From: Saururus chinensis
Lineage: Eukaryota; Streptophyta; Magnoliopsida; Piperales; Saururaceae
Direction of reading: 5' to 3'
Length of the DNA stretch: 64,000 nucleotides
Assembly (NCBI GenBank): GCA_035235625.1
Contig: CP141140.1
Coordinates: 7,336,685-7,400,684, forward strand
This document shows, piece by piece, positions 3,773 through 56,835 of this stretch; position 1 is the first letter of the stretch, and each line of letters starts with the position of its first letter. The position numbers and the translations under genes are program-made. A model generated the notes under the pieces. The model saw only the letters and a list, made by a program, of their open reading frames with translations, had not been told where the DNA came from and searched no databases.

Positions 3773-6700
3773 TCAAGGTGAGGACCCCCACACAAGCTTG
3801 AAGATATTTCTGCTAGCAGCGGAACTAACCACGCTACTTTGCGTTCTCAACAATTCTTCTTGAGCCAGCAAGTCTCCCTCCTTTCCCAAAGAAAAAACAG
3901 AAAATTTTGACTTAATATGCCAAAAAAATGAACTGTATGTACAACTAAAACAAACATAATTTCAGAAAAATCTAATATAAAAAAGTACGATAAATGGATA
4001 CCAGACCAGTGTTTTAAAAACTGATCCGGACACCAACCCATTTAGGTAGTTGGGCTGCATCAAACCAAGTCAAGTAGACCGCCTCAGCCCCAGGTCACAA
4101 ACTCACAAGGAGAAGATGGAGGTTCCAACAATGAGGGGAGGAAGATGTAGCTGGCTAAAAGAAAGGGGTCGCTGGCGAACAGGAGGAAGGGCCTTGCAAG
4201 GAGGAGACAAGGAGGGGCTGCGGGTGAGAAGACAATAAAAGAAAAAAGGATCATCCACAAGGAGAGGGAAAAGAGGCCCCCAGTGAAGAGGAGAAAGAGA
4301 GCAAGGGGCTGCTAGCAAGGAGGTGAAGAGGAGGCCGCCGGTGAGTAGGAAGAGAGCTGGAGCTGCCGGTGAGGAGAAGAGGTAGAAGGGGTGATCCGCT
4401 TGATCCAACCCAACGATTCAATCAGCCGGGTTGTCACCGCTTGGCTAGGATTAATAACATAAAGGGTCCAGTTGAACTGGCCCAGAAAAGTTGCCTTGTC
4501 CGGATTTCACTGGTCCAACCAGCCTGTCCGGTCCGGGTTTCAAAGCACTGCACCACAGTACTACAGCTTGAGGAGGAGATCCCAAGTGTGAAGTCATAAA
4601 ATTCCAACAATATAAATATTACAAACACTTCAAGCTGTTGTATTAAATTGCTTTCCATATATTCATGTTTCCAAGTGAATATGTGAAACTATATGCATCC
4701 TAGCCAATCTGACAACGAATAACCAAATACTAATGACCTCCAACCAACTATAAGTCTAATTTAATGTTTAACGAAATCAGATAATTATAGGAAAAAGTGA
4801 ATCCCGAACAACAAAATGTACTTCCTTAGATTCAGGAATTTTATAATAAGCATATTATAAACAAACAAACAAAAAAACACTCACCAGGAGAGAATATGCA
4901 CGAGCAAGAGAAAGAAGTGTTGGATACAGCTCCAAAACTGCATTGGCCACTTCTTCTGTTACTTGTGGAACCTGTATGTGAACCATCAAGATCACCATAT
5001 ATGCAACAAGATTCAAGCATTAGATGCAAGTAAGATAAAGAACCATATCCATAATCTTTTCTTAAATAGAAAACAACACTAATTGGTCCAAAGATATAGC
5101 TCATGTAGAGGAAACCAACAGATACTAATAACTTTCAGATTGCACTTTCTTGATGCCTCTTATGGCATCCCAAAAGATTTTGCTTAGCCCATGCCAACTT
5201 GAGGAGCAAAATTATAAGTCCAATGATCTGTGATACATCTAAGAGGTTCCTTAAAAAAGGGTTTTAACATGCTGATCTTGTGTCAAGAAAGAAAGAAGAC
5301 ACGGATGCAATGATCCTTTAACAATAAAATTCAAAAAGGAGACGTTTCTAATCTTACTAAGAACATTAATATTGCCAAACAATTACAAAAAGTAAAATTT
5401 ATCAAGAGAGCGCTACCTGCATAAGCTGAACTCCAAACACATCAGTAACTGTCATTTTGTCAAGATAGTGACACTTCCGAACAAATTCATCAAACAATGG
5501 ACATATCCTACTGTTTTCAGATGTGTCATCATATTTCACACTGTAAAATTGGATTATTGCACTAGTCAGATGACAATATTTCTTTAATGTGTCAGTCAAA
5601 CAGCTTGTCCTTTGTACATCAAACCCCTCAAGAATCTCTGTTGTATAACAACTGCAGATGCAAAAATAAAGCACAAGAAATGTCTTAACTAATTAATGAC
5701 ATAATGGCATCTCAAATGTGAAGATTTTGACAATGAGCTACTCATAGAGATCTGACATAAACTAAAAAGTGCTTACGCAGTTTTGATGCTTTCAGATGCT
5801 TCACAAGAATTTGGGTCACCTTCTACTAAATATATCAGCTTCTGGAGCCCACATCTCTAGAGAAGAAAGTATAAGAAGTATTGATGTAAGTAAAGAGCAA
5901 CATTTGAGGAAGGTGCCTGATTTACTAAACTAGCATCTTTGTATGCCCCTAAATAACGTAAAATCAGCACAGATATCAAAAACAGATTATAATTCTGTCT
6001 GCACAGAGAATGTAAAGACTAAAATTAATATGACCTCTAAGGAGTCTGGAAATATTGGACTGAGAATCTAAAAGAAAGATCATCGTAGTTGCACTCAATT
6101 CTCTCTACTAGGACATGGCAACAAACTCAATTCTAGTATTCTGTTTCATAATAATAGACAGATTATCACACCTGATAGCTTCATTATCAAGCTTCTTCTT
6201 ATTACCTAAAATCTATAATGTCATCACCTGCTCTCTCCGCAATAAACCCAAAATGGATAAAAAACACTCAACGAACTTATAGTCAACAATAAGAACTGAA
6301 TGATTGTGAATAGCCTTCAACTGATTAGAAGTGCAATACAAGTCAAACATAAAGTTTGCCACTCAAGTCAACCATACATTAGGCAGTTTCAGACAGAGTA
6401 CACGTAAGTATTTTATCATGCATCAAAATAACAGCTTGAAGAAAGGAAGATTTTACAAATGAAACAACTAGTAGGTAGTTCCATCTGCCTACCAACGGAA
6501 AAGACGCCCATCAAATGCAAATGGCATCCAAAAGATAAATGGAAAAAAGAAGAAACAATACCAAAAGCCTTAGCTTCTGATCTCTGTATCGGTTATCCCT
6601 AATTGAGCCACATAAATCATCAACTTCTTTTCTTTCCACAATGAAATCAAGTACATACTCTTTGTCAAAAAATTTCTGCCGGGCTATCCAAAGTCCATCT

Positions 6701-9700
6701 CCAACAGGCAAGCGCCTAATCTGGAGAACAAGGTAAGTGTTTAATCATCATTAGTTTACTCTCAATCAGGTAGCACGTAAGGGGTAAAAAAAGCCTAAGA
6801 ACCAAGAATGCATATACATGCAGAACTAACCCATTCAATGATAATAGGGGGCAGCGTCATACTCCTGTACTTTTTATGACCATAATCAAATGCTTCTAAT
6901 TGAGAAAAGGAAAACAAATCCTACCCCTTCAATAAAGCAACATAAAGATAGCTTATACCTAACTAAAGGTGCACATGCACAATAAAACCCAAGAACCACC
7001 GTGGCTCAGGTCTGATTAGCCAAATCCAGAGAGAAAAACATGGGCATTCTTTAAACTAGCATTCATGCAGATATATTTTTGGACCCAATTCAAGCTTGAA
7101 TCGTCTCCATGCACACCTCTACCTCGAGTTGCTGCTTTGGTCATGGAATTTAATTGGAGAACACCATCTGCAACCTCTCCAAGAGTCAAAAAACGGGAAA
7201 AAGGAGTTACCTCCAGATTCAGCCCCAATTTTTATTAATGAGCTGACAATTGCCATCATCAACATCATTATAATATCTCAACTATTTAAGGCCAGCAACA
7301 TTGGTAAATCATATGTATGGCATTAACGCCCTTGCACATTTTCTAGTCACTATCCATTAGTGTCATGAAACTTTTGATCCTAGAAATCAGTGACAAAATG
7401 ATACTAAAAAAGAAATGCAAACTATTATGCATTGATTTAAAAAATGGTTGATGCTGAACACATATCAAACCAACACCATATTAATAGATAATAACTCAAG
7501 TATTTTTTATATTACAAAGAACCAGAGTAACAAAAGAATGAAAAGTTGCAATGATTCTAAGTCTATTCCCAAACATCATTCAAAAATTACCTCTACATGA
7601 ACATTGAATTGGCTGCATATATTATCAATAAGCGGTTTGGACCGAGACCTGAAACCATGAAGGCAAAAAGACTTCACTATGGCAGATATCAAGCAAAATT
7701 CAGACTTGCGATGCATCAATAAAGAAACCCAAAATGAGGACCAAGAGAAAACTAATGATGCATATAGTTGTAACAACTGTCTTCACATAATAAAAAAACT
7801 AAGTTCCTTGAAGAACCATATATATTTGATATTGATAAAAACAGGGGATCAATATTGGGTTGATTCTGGACCACCAGAATACCATAAATTCTGAACAGCA
7901 ATCAGCGAGAATGTTCCCAGAAACATATCATTGAGAAGTCTTTTATAAAGTAGTTATAGCTAGGCAACAGCTCAAGCATGTCATCAATATTTTTTAACAC
8001 TTTCCCAAATTTAAGTTAGCATTCTCAGATAACAAAACTGTACCCAGAGAAAAGCGGTGTGCAAAGCAGAAAAAACCAAAATATAAAAGAAAATTCAAAG
8101 CAAATATTATTTAGACTTTCCAGAGGGCAATGATTTCCAAAGGATAACTTACAAACGATTACCCCGAACAAATTGTTCCCGATCATCCAATATTAAGACT
8201 ACATCATACACATCCTCAAATTTCTCTCCAAATCTTCGAGGTGGCATTGCTAAGGTATTCACACTTCTTTCACAATGGTTTGTATCCAATGATTTCTTCA
8301 CAGAGTAATCCTGAAAGATGGAACCAACATGACCATATCAAGTACAACTCCTATGTAAAGTTAGTTACAATAAAAAATGAAGTTACATACAGAAGATGAG
8401 CAAGCATGCACGCCAAAAGATGTAGATGCTGAAATAGCAGAACATGAAGGCTTCAAATTACGACTGTGTTCGCCATATGAAAACTTAGTGGTATGGGTGT
8501 CATCAATCAGAACTACAGTTTTTCCAAAATCTTGCCCAGCATCCAGATTTGAAAGATTAACATGTTCTTGCTGGTGATGACCTATATTAGAAGAAATTTT
8601 CTTCATATGTCCACTAGACACTGAACATTTTTTTCTTTTGGCTGGAAAAGACTCCGAAACTTCCATAGAATAAATTTGCTCTTCTGACTTTTGATCAGGA
8701 GACAGCTGCATAATATTTAGAAGAATTAGAATAATTCTACCAGAAATAAATTTAAACTTTAATTTATCAGAAAATTATACATATTGTATATTCCAATTTT
8801 CATAGTATTAGAGACAATCATATTAAGCAGTTTCATCGCATAGATATTAGCTAAACAGCTGAAAACATTAGCTCTCTTATAAACAAGCTCAAATTGATTG
8901 TAGAGAATCTAACATCTTTTTGTTTTCGCAAAATTTATTTCACTGTCCTCTGTATGTACCTCTTAGAGCCCAAACAATGTGGTGATGATAATAGCTCTGT
9001 ATCTCTTTAGTTTTCACTTGTAAGGACATAAAAGATAAAGAAAAATTTAATTTACCCCTCCCAAAGAGTCAACAGGAATTTCAACTGAACTTCTGCTTCT
9101 AACCAAACCCTTAGATGGCAATATTGCAACTTTGCCTAAAGAAGTATGATCAGTATCAATAACTGGAATATCTTGAACATGCTCAGAACTTGGCACTTTA
9201 TTATTACTCGAAGTCTCCGATGAATCAGCTAAACCAGACCTCAAAAGACATTCACGTGCTGCTTCTTGACCTGCTTGAGTTAGCATGTACCTTGAAATCA
9301 ACATAGCTACAATTATTTTCTGTATCAGACTGCAAAAGTGAATATAAACATATAGAGGTACCAGGATTAACACTCAAGTCCACGATCAAGTAACTGTATC
9401 ATCCAAATAAAATTTTCAACCTAAATAAAACGCTTCACAAATATACCACATCTTTGATGTGAGCCCTTCCTAATACATTTCCGTCACCCTTACAGTCCTT
9501 AAAGGCAGGTCTTCGTGAAAGTGAAATTCTAACTTAGCAAAATTTTAATTTTCAGACATCAATATAAAAAGGAAATAAGAAACAAAGAAGACCGATAATA
9601 TAACACTTTCTATGAACCTCTACATTCTAAATTCACCATTTCAATCAAATGAATTACATAATCCTATCAGCCTTATGTGGTACAAACCATCAAGGAAAAA

Positions 9701-19287: not shown

Positions 19288-21620
19288 CTAGACATTCAAA
19301 TCTTGTAAAGCATCTTTACAAGTCTTCTTGTTGTGATGTCCAAGTTTGCCACAACGACCACATTTAATTGATCTTGTTAACTTTTCACCACGAGATGGAA
19401 TTCTAGTAGACTTTGGTCGACCAGGAGGCCTTCTTAACAATGGAGGCAAGACTACAACTTCTTTTGAAGAAACTTTAGGCTTTTCATAAGAAGGAATAGG
19501 CAATATAGGCTGAGAGTAAGAATTTTCAAATGCAACTTTTGTAAGACAAGTATCACAAAAATATACGAGGGTCTTTCCCATTTCTAAGCAATGTTCTTAC
19601 AAAGATGTTTACAAGGATATCCAGTCAGCTGCCATTTGTAACAAGAACAATTATGAGAATCAATATTCACATATGTTGATGGATTTGACATAATTTCATA
19701 TAGATTATCATGAGAAGCAGCCACTACCCATACACTACCATCCTTAATATTCTCATCTAACTTTTGTTCCATAACTGGGCAAAGAACACTACTCCAACTC
19801 CTTGCTTCATTCCTACGCTCATTCATCATCTCCATAATCTTAATCAGTATCATATCAATCATCTTCATAATGGGTAAATGTCTTTCATCACGTATCCATG
19901 AGTTAAAAGATTCTGCAACATTAGAACACATATCACCATAACGCTTGCCCTTGAAATATGCATTCGCCCAATTTTCTTTTGGAAGATTTTTAAAAAATTT
20001 AACAACTTGTTGTCCGCCATCTTTTTTCAGTTCTTCAAACATCTTGTCAAATTTTGAAGGTCTTGCAACATAAGCACATTGTATAAACTTAAAATCCATA
20101 CTATCACGAAAGTCATTAGTCCTGCCTCTCAACTTGTCTGTCAAATTCATTCTCAAATGGTGTAAACAATAAGCATGTGGAAAAGATGGGAATATTTGTG
20201 ACACAGCTTGAAGCAATCCCTTATTACGATATGAGATAATAGTCAACTCACGTAAAGGATTAAGTATCACCTTCAATTGAATAAGAAACCATACCCAATT
20301 ATCTTCATCCTCAGAATTGACAACAACATATGCAAGAGGGAAAATACCTGAAAAAAATAAAAAAATATTAAAAATAATTTAAAAAATGAATACTTTTAAT
20401 CAAAAGTAAAACATTACTATACACATCATATGCTATAATTTCACTTTGTTATGTAGTTTACCTTCAAAAATTAAATAAAAAAATAAATTACAGCAAGAAA
20501 TAAGAATAAAATAATTACCTTGGTTGGCATTTTTTCCTGTGGCAGCCAACAAATGACCTTTATAATGCCCATGCAAATGGGTTCCATCAAAAAATAACAC
20601 AGGACGATAAAAGTTGAATCCATGGATGCATGCATAAAATGAAACAAACACTCTCTTAAATCGCCCACCTTCATCATCAAACTCCAAAGTCAAATGGCTA
20701 CCAGGATTAGTACTAATAGCAATACCAATGTACCAACATAAATCATCAAAAGACAATGAATGACCACCAAAAATTTTCTTTTGAGCCATTTGAACACTCT
20801 TACATGCAACTCGATAGGAAATATCAAGACCATAACTTGTATTAAATTGACGAACAACATCAATTGGATGAGTACGAGGATTGTTGCTAACTTGACTCAA
20901 CAACTCATTCGAAACAATGACAGTTGTTGTCCTTGGATTTTTCTTTCGTCGCACAATACATCTACATGTATGCTGATTATGAAGTTTACGAATATAAAAA
21001 ATATTACTCCAACCATCTTTTCTTGCGTGAACACGCCATTGACATCCTGTTGATTCTATGTGTTTGCATTCAGCAGTTATCCTTGAAAAATCATTCTTAA
21101 TATACTTAAATTCAAAACCAATCTCAATTGCATAATGACACAACTTTTGCCTAAAGTCTTCAACATCATCAAACTTTTGCCCAATAGAATCAATAGCAGT
21201 AGACCAATTTGTTGTCAAAAGAATATTACTTTCATGCAAAGATGAATAGACTTCTTCATCAAAGACAACATCATCATTAACTTCAATTCTACTACTTATC
21301 ACTTGATTACTAGTACCACTACTAGTTCCTTGATCAACAAAACAATCATTGACCCTTGATGAATTAATAACAAGAACATCAACAATCTTCACATGCAGCT
21401 CATAAGCAAGAAAAATTAAATTCTATAAGTCATCATTATGAAGAAGATTGCATTCTGAATGACGAGCCAAAGAATATTTCAATATAATAGACTCAGAATT
21501 TAGATCACTCCATGATTGACATATCATTGAAATCAACGTATCATAAGAAATACTTCTATTAACCCGAAAAACATTGGTATTAACACAATGTTTGCACAAT
21601 AACAGTATAACAGAGTCCAT
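19288..21620 (-). pseudogene. MuDR-type (MURA) transposase of the MULE, inactivated
   Basis: Exon 1 is 20519-21620 and exon 2 is 19288-20347, joined in phase across a GT-AG intron (..KNANQ then GIFPLAYVVV..). A splice acceptor sits just before the ATG at 21620, implying a leader intron. Domains in order: a MuDR N-terminal DNA-binding region (CKH..GCQW..HNQHTC), a DDE nuclease fold (FFDGTHLHG; CLHHLRMNL; SNVAESFNSW), a SWIM zinc finger (CSCYKWQLTGYPCKHLC) and a zinc knuckle (CGRCGKLGHHNKKTC). The second acidic residue of the DDE triad, usually in an SDRxKGL context, is Tyr here (ISYRNKGLL). There is an in-frame stop at 21423-21425 and a frameshift near 19584, just after the SWIM finger. It encodes no active enzyme. 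Confidence 0.85.
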
Positions 21621-31135: not shown

Positions 31136-31945
31136 AATGTCATTTTAGCAAAAGTTTATATATTTTTGTAAACCCAAACCAACCCAATTAGAAACCCACA
31201 CACCACAAGACAAAGATGAATAGTGTTTACCGCCTTCATCTTCAACTCCTCTCAGTCATCTTCACTTGTGCTTTCTAGCTTTTTTGATTTTCTATACAAC
31301 GTTTTTAATAAGTCATGTTGTACAAATAGATCTTTAACCCTTCTCTGCCACAAGATGAAGTTACTTTTTTCATCAAAATTTTTAACTTTAAATTAGCTAA
31401 ATCCCTTTGACGTCATCATGAAAAAAAATTGCTTTAAACCAAAGCTCCAATACCACTTTATAGAATTTCGCAATGGCACAATCCAAATATAAAGTAGAAA
31501 AATAATAAAAAGTAAATAGAGCAAGACACGAAGTTTTTGTGGTTTGGCAAGATGCATACGTTCATGACCAGAGAGAGCATTTCCCCTTTTACTTGAGAAA
31601 TATCTAAATAAATTATAAGCTTCTCAAATAGCCCATTGAAAGAACCCTTTGTACACCTTGTTTCTCACCCCTCTCGCAAAAAAGAAAGCCAAGAAGAAAA
31701 AACTGTTTATTCTCTCTACCTAGCCAAAACGAAAAGAGAAGGAGAAAAAAAACTTCTAAAGAAGTCAGCCCATGTGTTACAAAATAAAAGTGAGATAAGC
31801 CATAGTAACAGTTTCCCGATTTACCCTTATCATCTTACATTCCGTACCATCCACAAGAAATTATTTTATCCCGGCTAGACTCTATGTGATGACTTAAGTC
31901 ACATTAACAAGAGAATCTATGTGATTATTATTTTGATCCACTTTA
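31136..31945. other. Gene-free DNA left of the LTR element
   Basis: It holds a phrase near 31520-31575 (GAAGTTTTTGTGGTTTGGCAA region) of the kind found in dispersed plant repeats. I cannot assign a family. No gene is seen. Confidence 0.3.
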
Positions 31946-32255
31946 TGTTATGACCCTCCCTAAGAGTTGGGTCCTACCTTCATAGTCTAGTATAATTAGG
32001 ATTTAATTATAAGTGATAGTATTTTAGGGTAATTAGGATTTTATTCTTATTGGGCTTAGGCTAATGTTAGAGGTCTATTCTAATTATAAATTCTATTAGG
32101 ATTAGGATTAAGATTCTCAATTGTCTATAAATATGTAAGAGATATGTCTTGATTAATAAATTTATAAAATCAATGAAGAATTATATTAGTTATTTTAATT
32201 TAGCCTCTTTAGCCCTAATCTCCTATCTCTTCTCTCTAATTTGGCATGTGTAGAC

Positions 32256-33132
32256 CATGGTTTGCTGTCTTGGATCTTGGTCTTGTCTCGGTGAGCCAAA
32301 GAGATGAGATCTCGGAGAGAACTCATAGAGATCGTGTAAAACAATAGTAAGCATCTAGATCATAAAAAGATAGTCAACATATTTCTCACTATGAGTATAT
32401 ACTATCTTTGACAAATATTAAACACTTGCCAAGAAACCTTACTACTTAACACCAACAGAAAACTGTAATTAGATCTGAAAACAAATGATAAATTCACACC
32501 TACACTAAGGCGATGTCTTCATGAATGAGGACTAGCATTGTTAGAAATAAATTGTCTAACCCTAGTATGCTGATTGGCCAATGTAATTCTAACATTAGAA
32601 TGAGATAAAATGTAACCAACCAGTGGCAAAGATTTCCTGAATCAAGGAATTGGGTACGAGGAAAGAGAACATACCAAAATCGCCACCGCATTTGGCATAG
32701 CTGCAATCGGAGTGGCAGGATGCGATGTCCTTGAATCAGACCTTGCCCGCATCGATATCGTTGTGGAGGGCCACCAGGTGGGCAATGGTGGCGTCGCATA
32801 TGACGCGGCCATCGGGGTCCTTCCAATTCCAAGAGGCCTTGCAGTGGGATCCTTGGTGCTTGATGAGGATGTGCCAGGCCCCAATCTTCTCCCCATACGA
32901 CATCTTCTCCCGATTCCTCCTCCCACTTCAATCAAGCTCGTTTGATTCCTTTCTTCGCTTTCGATCCGCCACTGGCCTCTCTGCAAGAGCTAACGTACGT
33001 AGAGCCGGACCTCTCATCGGATCTCGGTTATCTTAGCGAGATCTCATCGAAATTATGTAAATATGGTTTTACGCAATATCGTGGCTCATTAGATATCTCG
33101 AGATAGAGATCTCGCCGAGACAACAAACCATG
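32256..33132 (-). mobile_element. hAT-like transposon carrying a PIN1 gene fragment
   Basis: Terminal inverted repeats are CATGGTTTGCTGTCTTGG at the left and, reverse complemented, CATGGTTTGTTGTCTCGG at the right (16 of 18). Both ends are flanked by the perfect 8-bp duplication GTGTAGAC (32248-32255 and 33133-33140). The matching place in the partner LTR (about 35055) has GTGTAGAC once, so it serves as the empty site. An 8-bp duplication with CA..TG ends fits the hAT superfamily. No transposase is present. The interior holds part of a host prolyl isomerase gene, making this a Pack-type gene-capturing element. Confidence 0.88.
32675..32903 (-). pseudogene. Captured fragment of a PIN1-type parvulin prolyl isomerase
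   Basis: From the ATG at 32903 the frame reads MSYGEKIGAWHILIKHQGS, then KASWNWKDPDGRVI, HNDIDAGKV and FKDIASCHSDCSYAKCGGDFG. This matches the start of plant PIN1At-type parvulins (HILIKHQGSRRKASWKDPEG..SDCSSAKRGGDLG), which isomerise phospho-Ser/Thr-Pro bonds. An in-frame TGA lies at 32736-32738. The similarity stops at a good splice donor (TTTTG then GTATG), so the fragment seems to be 5' genomic DNA with an exon and intron start rather than a copy of mRNA. About the last 45 residues of the domain are absent. The upstream GC-rich 32904-32990 may be captured leader. Confidence 0.82.
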
Positions 33133-35114
33133 GTGTAGACTTGATCTATAACACTGGTACCAGAGCATGTTCATGCGCCCTCCCACCCTCTCCTACTTGT
33201 CAATTGAATACAAGATTATAAGTATTTTGTCCCCATTGCGAGGGGCTCTATAGCGACCCTCGATGACTCTTTTCAGCAACAACTTGATCATCGTTTTGAC
33301 CATCTTGATCACCGCTTCAACCAATTGTTGCAAGCTATCCTCTAACTCAGTTGACTGTCCTTGCATCTACCACTAGACCTTGCACACCAAAGCCGCATGT
33401 CATCATCATCTCGTCTGCCACTATTGACTACTTAGAAGACGAGTTTGCACCTGTGCTTTTTGTTGCAATCGATGCCAAAGACTCACCTCCCCTTCTACTA
33501 GCAACCAAATATTCTACTACCAAGGACCACTATAAGGGAGTAGATGAATTCTTACTGACATCGGTGAACGAATTGTCTATAGTTAAGATGAACAACGCCC
33601 AACCCTCACAGCCCATTCGCCTTCCCTCCAGCAATGTTGAGACTTTCTTGATTGCTTTTGGCCAACCACCTTTCTGCTCCATGGTCGTCAAGTCCATCTC
33701 TTTCAAACCAATATTGCCACCAATGGCTTTCGATGGTGTGCCACTTACTCCTTCAGTCAGCAATCCCTCTAAGCGTCTTCGCAACAAGATCATCAATTTC
33801 TCCACCCACCTCATGATGAGCATCCATTGCGGCCCCATTTGAGGGACCGCCCTCAAGCTGCAGGAGAAGGAATGGGAATGCCGCATGGACTTTGTCCCCG
33901 ATGAGTCCGCCTTCAAGCTCAACCTCATCGTGGTCGAAAATGAGACCATTGACATACACACATCCTTCGTCATGTCTACCCCATTGGGAGTCCATCCCCA
34001 CTATGATAGTCAAGGATGGATCCTCCCCATGACCCCGGTAGTTTGACGATCGACTTTGACAGCAAAGCATTGGTTTCCCGCCGCACCTCTTAAAGTCCCT
34101 CTGCTTCAATGCAAGTGGTCCATGTCGCTATGCATCATCTTCTTTTGCAAGCTATACTTCTGCCTATCACTCTAGTCGTGGATTGCCCTATCGCCCATCC
34201 TCCAGTCTCGTCTTCTCTATTTGGTCACCATAGACTATGCTACTCAATGCTCCTTCAACGGTCACGACTCACCCCCACAAAGCCCTAACCTCAACCTTTG
34301 CCTTCCACTTTGGCATCTTCATGAAATTTGGAACTGTGGTTCCTGTTTACCGTGGACTCTGCCTTTGTTATAGTCATGCCTCTTACGTGAATTGGATGTC
34401 TGCATAAGATGACTTCCACATGCCAGATCTTACATGGGTCCGCATGAACCTGACCAAACCTGTGGCCACCTTACAAGTCGTTTTGCGGGTTTTGCATTGT
34501 TATTCACACATTGTCTATGCAAACAAGTTCTGCCTAATGTCGACTCGATATGCATTATTCATAGTGTTATTCCATCCATTCATTTTGTTGATGGCACGAA
34601 ATATGACCTTCACTACAGAGCATTGATGGGCCCAAGGGTCATTATATTATGAAGTTACGTTTTGCTTGTATTCGCATGTGCTGCACAAATTAAAGACCAC
34701 CTCGAGGATGAGGTAGAACAGAATCAAGGTGGAATGTTAAGACCCACCTTAGGGGTTGGGTCCTGCCTTCATAGTCTAGTATAATTATGATTTAATTATT
34801 AGTGATAATATTTTAATATAATTAGGATTTTATTCTTATTAGACTTAGGCTAATATTAGTAGCCCATTCTGATTAAATTTTTTATTAGAATTAAGATTAA
34901 GATTCTTAATTGTCTATAAATATGTAGGGGCTATGCCCTGATTGAAGAGTTTTAAAATAAATGAAGAATTATATTAGTTATTTTAATTTAGCCTCTTTAG
35001 CCCTAATCCTCACTCTTTCTATCCTATTTCTCTCTAATTTGGCCGGTGTAGACATTGGTCTAAAACATTCTATTGCCGCAAAGATAATTTTGATCCACTT
35101 CTTTTAAAATGATA

Positions 35115-37718: not shown

Positions 37719-38324
37719 CTATCGTTGCGGCTTCATCATGCGAGTGAAATCCTGAAAGCAGACGAATCCGTCCCCATCGGAGTCGACGTTAACAATCATC
37801 CGCCTGCAGTCCTCAAGCGTGCAGCCCGCCTCGCCGATGCACGAGAATACCTCGAATAGCTCCTCGGCGGAGATCTTCCCGTCCCCGTCCGCGTCGTAGT
37901 AGTCGAAGGCCTCCCTCAGCTCGGAGCCGCCCGCCGGGCCGAGCCGCGAGCTCAGCTCCCCGAACTCCTCCAGGCTGATGCACCCGTCCCCGTCCCGGTC
38001 CGCCTCCTCCAGGATCAGCCCCAGCTCCTCCTCAGTGTGCGGCCCCACACCGAGCCGGCGGAAGACCAGATCGAGCTCCTGTTTGGAGATCTTCCCGTCC
38101 CCGTCGCGGTCCAGGAGGCGGAACACCTCGGCCGCGTCGTCAAGCCGGGGTTCGGGGTCGAGCCACTCGCGGGCCTGCCCGGGGAGGACGCTCTTGGGGG
38201 TCTCCTTGAGGTCGGTCGAGGAGGAGGACGCGGACGAACCGGAGCTCAAAGAACCCGGGTCGGACCGCGCGACGGACCGGGACTTCCTTCTGAAGGGAAG
38301 GAAGGATGTTGGCTTCAATTTCAT
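37719..38324 (-). CDS. Calmodulin-like calcium sensor, CML35/36 type, intronless
   Basis: A 201-residue protein with four EF-hands that binds calcium and relays the signal to targets. I start it at 38324 (MKLKPTSFLPFRRKSRSVAR), not the in-frame ATG at 38357, because MKL followed by a basic, Ser-rich N-terminus is the family start. A low-complexity Ser stretch is at about residues 25-37. EF loops: 72-83 DRDGDGKISKQE, 109-120 DRDGDGCISLEE, 144-155 DADGDGKISAEE, 181-192 DSDGDGFVCFQD. The first three are canonical. The fourth ends in Asp rather than Glu, as in the GDGFVCF(D/Q)DF hand of CML35/36. The coding sequence is very GC-rich with CpG-rich third positions, unlike its AT-rich surroundings. 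Confidence 0.93.
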   Translation of the reverse strand: MKLKPTSFLPFRRKSRSVARSDPGSLSSGSSASSSSTDLKETPKSVLPGQAREWLDPEPRLDDAAEVFRLLDRDGDGKISKQELDLVFRRLGVGPHTEEELGLILEEADRDGDGCISLEEFGELSSRLGPAGGSELREAFDYYDADGDGKISAEELFEVFSCIGEAGCTLEDCRRMIVNVDSDGDGFVCFQDFTRMMKPQR

Positions 38325-38500
38325 GGTATATGAGGGAAAATGCAAATGCAGAAGCAAAGAAGGTGGAAATGCTAGAGGAGGAAGAGAAGAGGAAGAGGAT
38401 GGTGGGAGGAAAGAGAGGGTAGGCTGATTAAATGGCCTTTGGCTCAGACTCAGGAGTGAGCTTCCTGGAAGCTTCGTTAGTCTTTTTCCTTCCTGTTTTT
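38325..38500 (-). promoter_or_regulatory. 5' leader and near promoter of the calmodulin-like gene
   Basis: Read on the minus strand it is CT-rich (runs of TCTTCC and CCTCTCTTTCC), typical of plant 5' leaders and pyrimidine-patch core promoters. I see no clear TATA box. Confidence 0.4.
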
Positions 38501-54529: not shown

Positions 54530-56835
54530 ATGAACAACCTCGAGGATTGCTTCAAGTCCATCTCCCTAGACTACCTCAACCTCCTCATCAACGGCCAGGC
54601 CTTCAGCGACGTGACCTTCAGCGTCGAGGGCCGGTTGGTCCACGCCCACCGGTGCATCCTGGCAGCCCGAAGCCTCTTCTTCCGCAAGTTCTTCTGCGGG
54701 GCCGACCCCTCCCCAGGCCTGCTCTCCCTCTCCTCCCCCAATTCACATGTCATCTCCGTCAATTCAGTCGGATACGACGTCTTCTTCCTCCTCCTCCAGT
54801 TCCTCTACAGTGGCCAGGTCTCGATCCTGCCCCATAAGCACGAACCTCGCCCTAATTGTGGTGAGCGAGGGTGCTGGCACACTCATTGCACCTCCGCCGT
54901 TGACCTAACCCTCGACACCCTCGCGGCCGCTCGATCCTTCGGCGTCGATCAGCTGCTGCTGCTCACTCAGGTTGATTGAATTCCCTTTTTCTGCTTGTGC
55001 GTGCTCTCTAGGCTTGCTCCACTTTTGAGTTGGTTGTTTGTCTTCACAATTTCATCTCTGATTCAGCTTTGTTTTTTCAGCCTTTTTTTTTTTTTTTGTT
55101 GCTATATCAAACCTCTTTACCAAGGATGTACAAGTATTATATCCACATTTCTTTGGTTGATCATTTGGCGCCGAGTATAAAATGATATAATCTAGTAAAA
55201 ACAATATTTTCATAAATGATATGTATCCTTTGTATAATATTAGTTATTTGTTAGATGCTTTTGTAACTACAGATTTTTTTTTAAATTCTTAGTAACTACT
55301 ATACGCCTGACATATGCTTTTTGTGAAATGACTAGTTATGCTGTCATTAATTCGGAGGAAGCGGTGCTATAAGCACAGTGGAGTCAAAATACCACCTTTT
55401 TTGCCATTTTTTTTTTGGTTTTCCTAGAGGGGATTTTCAGGATGCATATATAGGCGCGTTGATAAATTAATATCAGCAAGCAGTTATGATAAATGCTACA
55501 TTTCATGCATGCAGCAAATCAGATCGTTTTCCAGTATTGATTTCTTCTAGATTCAGTTTTCTTTCGTTTCACCGGACCGGACAATGATCACCAGTTTCCC
55601 GATCTGGTTCTCTAACTTCTCCATCAATCACCTGATTCTTTTTCCATCAAAATATCCCACCTTTCCCATTTGGGCGTTACGGCTCTATCATCTTCACTAA
55701 AATAATAACAGCGTTCACTGTGTACACACAAGAGCGCTACTATGTAAACAAAAAGTGATAGTTTTATCGTTTTGCTAGGCCAGGAATGACTTGACGAGCT
55801 TTGCAGAATATTTATATCTGTACTAATTTTTTGCAGAAGCAATTGGCAACCATGGTAGAGAAAGCCTCCATCGAAGACGTGATGAAGGTTCTAATGGCGT
55901 CGAGGAAGCAGGACATGCACCACCTTTGGACCACATGCTCACATCTGGTGGCCAAGTCCGGCCTCCCCCCGGAAGTCCTGGCTAAGCATTTGCCCATCGA
56001 CGTGGTGGCCAAGATCGAGGAGCTCCGGCTCAAGTCTTCCTTCTCCCGCCGCTCTATCCTCCTCTCCCCCCACCATCACCAGCACCGTCCTCACCTCCAC
56101 GATCTAGGTGGGATCGGTCCCGGAGAGCTTGACGACAACAAAATGCGCCGCATGAGGCGGGCCCTCGATTCGTCGGACGTGGAGCTCGTCAAGCTGATGG
56201 TCATGGGGGAAGGGCTGAACCTGGACGACGCCCTCGCCCTCCACTACGCTGTCCAGTACTGCAGCCGGGAGGTGGTCAAGGCACTGCTCGAGCTCGGTGC
56301 GGCCGATGTCAACTGCCCAGCCGGCCCGGTAGGGAAGACTCCGCTCCACCTTGCCGCCGAAATGGTCTGCCCGGACATGGTGGCCGTCCTGCTCGACCAC
56401 CACGCTGACCCGAACGTCAGAACGGCGGATGGGGTGACCCCGCTCGACATCCTCCGGACCCTCACGTCCGATTTCCTCTTCAAGGGCGCCGTCCCTGGAC
56501 TAGCCCACGTCGAACCCAACAAGCTCCGCCTCTGCCTCGAGCTCGTCCAGTCGGCAGCCATGGTCCTGTCTCGGGAGGAAAGTGGTGCCGACGCAGGCCC
56601 AACAGCCATATACGCGCCAAGGAACCCTGAGTCCAGTGGCACCAGCAACCCAATGGTGAACCTTAGCCTTGACTCCAGAATGGTGTATCTCAATTTAGGC
56701 GCGCAAGCTGCACAGTTGGGCTGCAAGATGGATGGCAATGGAGATAGTCCTGGGACCAACAGCAGAAGGGTGAGCATGAATCGGCATGAATCCCAGGGTG
56801 GCTGTGACCCTTCAATATATTCCCATGAATACTAG
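54530..56835 (+). CDS. BOP: BLADE-ON-PETIOLE / NPR5-like BTB-ankyrin protein, complete, 2 exons
   Basis: A transcriptional co-activator of the NPR1 family (Arabidopsis BOP1/BOP2, legume NOOT) that works with TGA-type bZIP factors to set organ boundaries, leaf base identity and abscission zones. Exon 1 is 54530-54970, exon 2 is 55837-56835, with a GT-AG phase-0 intron of 866 bp. That gives 1440 nt and 479 residues, normal for the family. Start MNNLEDCFKSISLDYLNLLI is the family N-terminus. BTB/POZ covers about residues 20-130 and includes the C2HC zinc site (CGERGCWHTHC at 110-120). QLWTTCSHLVAKSGLPPEVL-type sequence (here HLWTTCSHLVAKSGL) and the DVVAKIEELR helix follow, then ankyrin repeats at about 240-350 (LDDALALHYAVQYC, GKTPLHLAAEMVCPDM, DGVTPLDILR). 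No NPR1-type C-terminal extension is present. The exons are GC-rich and intact. Confidence 0.95.

Follow-up and report, generated by a model that had tools for sequence, protein, structure and literature searches.

Gene capture by hAT transposons is already known. Gene-carrying hATs have been published from maize, rice, grapevine and animals, and the original prediction, which called capture by hATs less described than that by Pack-MULEs, was fair but needs that addition. In the parts of these sources drawn on here, the closest described systems are the Pack-hATs of maize and rice (Gisby and Catoni 2022, PMC8903248), which like the 877-bp element considered below are non-autonomous hATs with TIRs, an 8-bp TSD and host coding DNA. 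The same paper, to the extent drawn on, reports stepwise acquisition in one cluster, in which an extra 58-nt gene piece was gained in a Pack-PIF subgroup; the present case concerns another family and species, and here an exon was seemingly replaced with its edges kept, not merely added to. Likewise, in maize Ds2 and Ds-l4 variable filler DNA is enclosed by hAT ends (Du et al. 2011, PMC3260210, in part). Ds-l4 is ~1 kb long, and some Ds2 and Ds-l4 elements contain pieces of genes, introns included, that were copied from other chromosomes; the passages concerned report such fragments in only 2 Ds2 and 9 Ds-l4, among 903 Ds-related elements in all, filler being general (PMC3260210). Hatvine-6 of grapevine (Benjak et al. 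2008, PMC2528002, in part) also combines shared TIRs with variable parts of genic and non-genic origin, although its members share transposase coding sequence and the 877-bp element has none. Among animal Pack-TIRs, 208 of 370 are placed in hAT in the sections used of Tan et al. 2021 (PMC8277862). These resemble the present case in hAT capture and short similarity at breakpoints, for which gap filling by template switching during repair is argued there, and differ in being nearly all single-copy, whereas the lineage described here multiplied after capture.

How cut-and-paste transposons capture genes is still argued in the portions cited, the choice lying between template-switch repair and fusion of neighbours (PMC8277862, PMC8903248), and the fusion model, proposed for Pack-CACTA, was extended by Gisby and Catoni (PMC8903248). 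Within the parts of the literature on gene-carrying hATs that were covered, addition of a second fragment was found and replacement with edges kept was not, which is no proof of its absence; the covered part of one review (PMC13317346) does not mention hAT by that word. The readable exchange of cargo is the notable part of the present locus. One genome keeps a readable series, from a transposase-bearing type through PIN1 cargo and PIN1 edges with UGT cargo to a further replacement, and since the donor genes are open as well, both the order of events and the breakpoints are directly testable. The case also illustrates that carriage of foreign DNA can be habitual in a hAT family.

The element and its insertion site

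The window, that is the whole 64-kb stretch of DNA analysed, contains at 32256-33132 a non-autonomous hAT element of 877 bp, with 18-bp TIRs (CATGGTTTGCTGTCTTGG and CATGGTTTGTTGTCTCGG) that match at 16 of 18 positions and a perfect 8-bp TSD, GTGTAGAC, on both flanks (Table 1). Length, ends and duplication were all found as originally predicted. The prediction that the insertion splits the left LTR of an old retroelement, with the right LTR as the empty site, is borne out by a single alignment: the joined flanks of the left LTR align with the right LTR in one piece, through one GTGTAGAC, at 281 of 335 columns (84%) with 12 gaps. With TIRs and TSD around the cargo and an empty site in the right LTR, the element has the co-mobilised cargo that characterises Pack-TYPE transposons; a different cargo of the family, that of L019, exists as 12 near-identical full-length copies. 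At up to 3 mismatches the family TIR consensus occurs at three sites in the window, against 0.01 expected, namely both ends of the element and 7642-7659 (3 mismatches).

Table 1. Features of the element and of the LTRs around it, in window positions.
Feature	Position	Strand	Basis or remark
Left LTR of old LTR retroelement, split by the hAT element	31946..33153	+	335 columns aligned with the right LTR at 84%, after removal of the insert and one TSD copy
Direct repeats supporting the LTR pair	31945-32220 and 34734-35008		
Right LTR, unbroken; empty site with one GTGTAGAC	34735..35067	+	alignment to joined flanks
TSD, left copy, GTGTAGAC	32248..32255	.	
TSD, right copy, GTGTAGAC	33133..33140	.	
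Left TIR	32256..32273	+	
Right TIR	33115..33132	-	
Transposon's own left end, element positions 1 to ~166	32256..32421	+	common to transposase-bearing members
Start of PIN1 intron 1, captured	32415..32674	-	GT at 32674-32673; alignment to donor L009 and junction alignment
Overlap of captured intron with transposon left end: junction similarity ATATTAA(A)CA	left junction		junction alignment
PIN1 exon 1, captured	32675..32903	-	ATG 32903-32901; in-frame TGA 32736-32738; 12-bp deletion, 6-bp insertion
PIN1 5' leader, captured	32904..32997	-	62-bp deletion between CTCT repeats; last ~13 bases by reading of alignment
Short filler at right junction	32998..33011	.	similar in aligned PIN1-derived relatives
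Transposon's own right end, element positions 757-877	33012..33132	+	72% match to contig-2 long element, positions 6076-6195

The left end of the element gave a folding z of -0.7, and a reading of secondary structure there was dropped. The host retroelement is short and internally reduced, its interior (33154-34734) measuring only ~1.6 kb between LTRs that are 84% identical; the start of this interior, CTGGTACCAGAGC, resembles an initiator-tRNA primer site.

The PIN1 cargo and its donor gene

Element positions 160-729 are colinear with contig 11:8912891-8913464, with 483 of 582 columns identical (83%) and no rearrangement. This identity confirms the predicted PIN1-type exon 1 with leader and intron start on the minus strand, and the alignment to the functional gene, which had been proposed as a check, covers all three parts, the intron portion amounting to ~260 bp. 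Chance similarity to PIN1 is excluded by an alignment of 582 columns in which leader, exon and intron follow in order, and the presence of intron and leader means that the template was DNA, not mRNA. The donor frame on contig 11 (L009) reads MSSGEQVRASHILIKHQGSRRKASWKDPDGRVI... and has an open exon 1 (4.7e-34 to the solved plant PIN1 1j6y); the gene has two exons, the second, also open and encoding the rest of the enzyme, lying ~2.7 kb from the first. In the cargo, the 55-aa stretch preceding the stop reaches 7.1e-8 against the same structure. Host coding DNA from an identifiable donor, the PIN1 gene of contig 11, in a non-autonomous element is a further Pack-TYPE property. Transfer in the other direction, from transposon to gene, was rejected, as both exons of the contig-11 gene are open, no family TIR occurs, with up to 4 mismatches allowed, in a 9.9-kb stretch around it, and the transposon copy is the broken one.

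At E <= 0.001, PIN1 exon 1 is present at only three places in the genome: the open gene, the 877-bp element with one TGA, and a piece on contig 1. The possibility that every family member carries the same interior, which would have spoken against capture, is contradicted by that count, and the donor gene together with same-ended relatives holding other interiors establishes the capture that had been predicted. The contig 1 piece, at 52050921-52051246 (L010:4417-4754), is old, extends from the leader to just beyond the exon and contains one TGA; it stands at 64% in the exon-1 search (at 52050936) and at 76% to the open gene. Around it no family TIR was found at up to 4 mismatches in 9.5 kb, and flanking inverted repeats formed no convincing element. 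It is perhaps an independent capture by another element.

Over exon and intron alone, the cargo differs from the donor at 64 of 481 aligned bases, and 41 of the 64 differences are C to T or G to A. By site, they affect 29 of 85 CpG positions, 21 of 167 other C or G and 14 of 229 A or T. The overall spectrum, drawn from an alignment in which the leader is partly misaligned across its deletion, predicts 14.8 synonymous and 26.3 other changes in the exon, where 13 and 19 are observed; this substitution pattern gives no sign of selection. A working or regulatory role, as a small PIN1-like peptide or through an antisense effect, might be read from the survival of the ATG, of some leader and of the GT where the exon ends, and from the reading direction that cargo and transposase share. 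Such a role is nevertheless very improbable in view of the in-frame TGA, the 12-bp deletion within the domain and substitutions as expected without selection, and a conserved function of the fragment was dropped on stop, indels and lack of any sign of selection.

The hAT family, its transposase and its cargoes

Across the genome searched (516 Mb in 11 contigs, a plant by its gene content), the TIR consensus CATGGTTYGCCGTCTCGG has 316 matches at up to 2 mismatches, against 6 for the reversed control pattern; the 316 point to some 150 copies or more. TSDs were read in 22 short members with both ends, a sample that includes the 877-bp element and was assembled from loci similar to it or matching the TIR pattern, the latter fetched for the 30 perfect matches out of the 316. 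In this sample 8-bp TSDs are perfect in 14, agree at 7 or more positions in 20 and at 6 or more in all 22, pairings having been drawn from a list restricted to at least 6/8, with one pairing in the distance range, that of the inner left end of L045, hidden. The count leaves aside L015 and L017, in which one end is degenerate or missing, and loci with one end in view. When flanks were cross-paired as a control, 1 of 462 pairs agreed at 7 positions and 0 of 462 at 8. In the members examined, therefore, the TSD is 8 bp, and the flanking 8-mers are duplications in other copies too, as the prediction required.

The 877-bp element has CATGG at both ends, as most of the 22 members do at theirs, and the hAT superfamily has short TIRs starting YAnnG. 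When 15 perfect TSDs, that of the contig-8 long element among them, are read on both strands, 20 of the 30 readings have T at position 2 and A at position 7; nTnnnnAn is the TSD preference of Ac-type hATs. The composition is close to that preference, and any placement in the Ac group would be tentative. Two long relatives were followed end to end: one on contig 8 (6767 bp, perfect TSD CTCGAAAG), with DUF659 (9.8e-45) and Dimer_Tnp_hAT (2.9e-10), and one on contig 2 (6195 bp, TSD 6/8), with zf-BED (1e-4), DUF659 (5.8e-48) and Dimer_Tnp_hAT (2.9e-11). The transposase frames of the long members are in several pieces, which may reflect introns or decay, and the contig-8 copy has a stop between a BED-like motif and DUF659. 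The 877-bp element has no transposase gene of its own, its interior being PIN1 sequence, and does not qualify as an autonomous hAT. The hAT identity first proposed from the 8-bp duplication and CA..TG ends is now demonstrated by zf-BED, DUF659 and Dimer_Tnp_hAT in relatives with the same ends.

The hallmarks of Pack-MULEs are a 9-bp (8-11) TSD and a MULE transposase. MULEs are the classic gene-capturing transposons and vary in TSD length, and a Pack-MULE might on that account be considered in place of a hAT; its probability is close to negligible given that TSD identity extends over 9 bp in 0 of the 22 short members, that the TIRs are short, and that hAT transposase domains lie between the same ends. 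MULE identity was ruled out on TSD length and transposase domains. That the element is a hAT and that it captured PIN1, these two points alone, is nearly certain.

With L015 and L017 the short members number 24, of which 22 have a run longer than 480 bp that counts as foreign because nothing in two full and three partial transposase-bearing members matches it; the remaining two, L029 and L039, look like plain internal deletions. Protein families can be named for PIN1, UGT, PPR in three classes (L019, L020 and L024, the call for the L019 class falling below Pfam's cut-off) and DnaJ (L051). Eighteen of the 24 belong to classes with gene-like cargo, 8 of these 18 to a single class with a weak PPR match, a proportion unlike that given for Ds2 and Ds-l4 in the part of that study cited, the two samples being drawn differently (PMC3260210). 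The L019 cargo exists in 12 full-length copies, at contig 4:7788694-7789609 and at 11 other places (94-97% to the query), and represents the most numerous cargo-bearing line observed; carrying cargo is thus no bar to amplification. The L024 cargo is matched in full or nearly so at several other places, the L020 cargo at one (90%) and additionally by a split match, and the L051 cargo is a mosaic that includes repeated DNA. Within the latter, the DnaJ-domain piece (query positions 17-198) has many further matches of 76-92%, the majority of them on contigs 7 and 8, and is possibly carried by another mobile element. All six nameable cargoes read from the right end toward the left end, the same direction as the transposase, which is suggestive only; a frame in L022, without a Pfam match and left out of the six, runs in the opposite direction.

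Probable exchange of cargo and the proposed route of capture

Eight elements carry PIN1-derived sequence, and in a tree of 27 elements built on TE-only left ends they form one clade (98/97, and 99% of bootstrap trees). Two differences from the PIN1 donor are common to all eight, both being C-to-T or G-to-A transitions. In six relatives (L012, L013, L017, L014, L015 and L016) PIN1 intron sequence continues beyond position 166, up to ~252 or 306, and is followed by other DNA, and near the right end stands CACTCTGCAAGAGCCAA or a near variant, which comprises ~20 bp of PIN1 leader plus flank and precedes similar filler; the stretch is incomplete in L012 and L014. Between PIN1 intron and PIN1 leader piece sit pieces of a UDP-glycosyltransferase gene on contig 5 (90% over one, 88% over another), whose donor is an open frame of 486 codons (UDPGT 1.2e-18). 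In L014-L016 the middle comes partly from contig 5:8073276-8073620 (84%), where the frame tested matched nothing in Pfam. L011 has a left half as in this UGT-plus-second-locus class and its other half ~10 kb away, a separation that a later insertion could have caused; despite that interior, it groups weakly with the 877-bp element (83/77).

The TE-only clade of eight and the two shared differences from the donor argue that PIN1 came first and once, the exon being exchanged afterwards. PIN1 was probably captured a single time, the order with PIN1 first and exchange later is most likely, and one capture with later replacement is well supported as a sequence of events. Repeated capture of one locus is conceivable, and the differences common to all eight are transitions of a kind frequent here, which would allow PIN1- and UGT-bearing elements to have taken PIN1 sequence independently; the identical left junction, the similar right junction and filler, and the single TE-only clade make this quite improbable. 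Beyond single capture and replacement, it is tentatively suggested, with somewhat less than an even chance of being right, that the family reloads its cargo in place: PIN1 would have been captured once, its exon would have given way to UGT pieces and to another locus, with the original cargo's outer edges left in place, and all six nameable cargoes lie in the transposase direction. Such reloading would mean that exchange at a fixed slot is driven by repair and runs one way, and that the cargoes were not captured independently.

The best explanation as a whole, the repair step included, can be put forward as probable. In it, the interior of an ancestral element would have been filled by one genomic, unspliced piece of PIN1, comprising leader, exon 1 and the start of intron 1, most likely when repair of a break in the element was interrupted and switched, at short similarity, to an ectopic template. 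The PIN1-loaded element would then have multiplied; the line of the 877-bp copy would have kept its PIN1 piece, which decayed, and in other lines the exon would have been replaced by UDP-glycosyltransferase pieces and another locus, with PIN1 edges left on both sides. The 877-bp copy, presumably moved in trans by the BED-DUF659-hATC transposase of its 6-7 kb relatives, would finally have inserted into the LTR and made the 8-bp duplication. Within this account hAT identity, donor gene and empty site are observed directly; the repair mechanism, movement in trans and timing we infer, as the original prediction did for the mechanism of capture.

The junctions and ends bear on that route. At the left junction AACA (4 bp) is perfect in TE and donor, inside a longer imperfect match of ATATTAAACA with ATATTAACA, and filler occupies the right junction, both as read from the alignment. 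No TIR remnant was found within the 877-bp element at up to 5 mismatches. In L045:178-1518 (contig 3:40445256-40446596) the left 108 bp are doubled, and the 8-bp duplication is present only at the outer pair of ends; end duplications do, therefore, occur in the family. Such doubling would suit a capture by fusion, in which two family members flanking a PIN1 copy moved jointly, as proposed, in the part cited, for all Pack-TYPE superfamilies studied, hAT included (PMC8903248). Fusion is nonetheless unlikely here, given the lack of TIR remnants in the element at up to 5 mismatches and of a family TIR at up to 4 in the 9.9 kb around the donor, and repair would more easily leave PIN1 edges flanking a middle that has changed. 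The absent remnants would accordingly fit template-switch repair better than neighbour fusion, both routes being conjectural. Several observations count against the account as a whole even so: no more than 4 bp match perfectly at the left junction, and filler intervenes at the right one; the doubled left end of L045 also fits fusion of neighbouring insertions; L011 groups, if weakly, with the 877-bp element; the fragmented transposase frames and the contig-8 stop leave present mobility no more than a possibility; and the right PIN1 relic of the relatives is only ~20 bp, the two shared changes being transitions.

Elsewhere in the window, by reading of the frames, two open frames on the minus strand at 19584-21422 resemble MULE transposase, and two likely host genes are present, one for an EF-hand calmodulin-like protein (37719-38498, minus strand) and one for an ankyrin-repeat NPR/BOP-like protein (55795-56835, plus strand).
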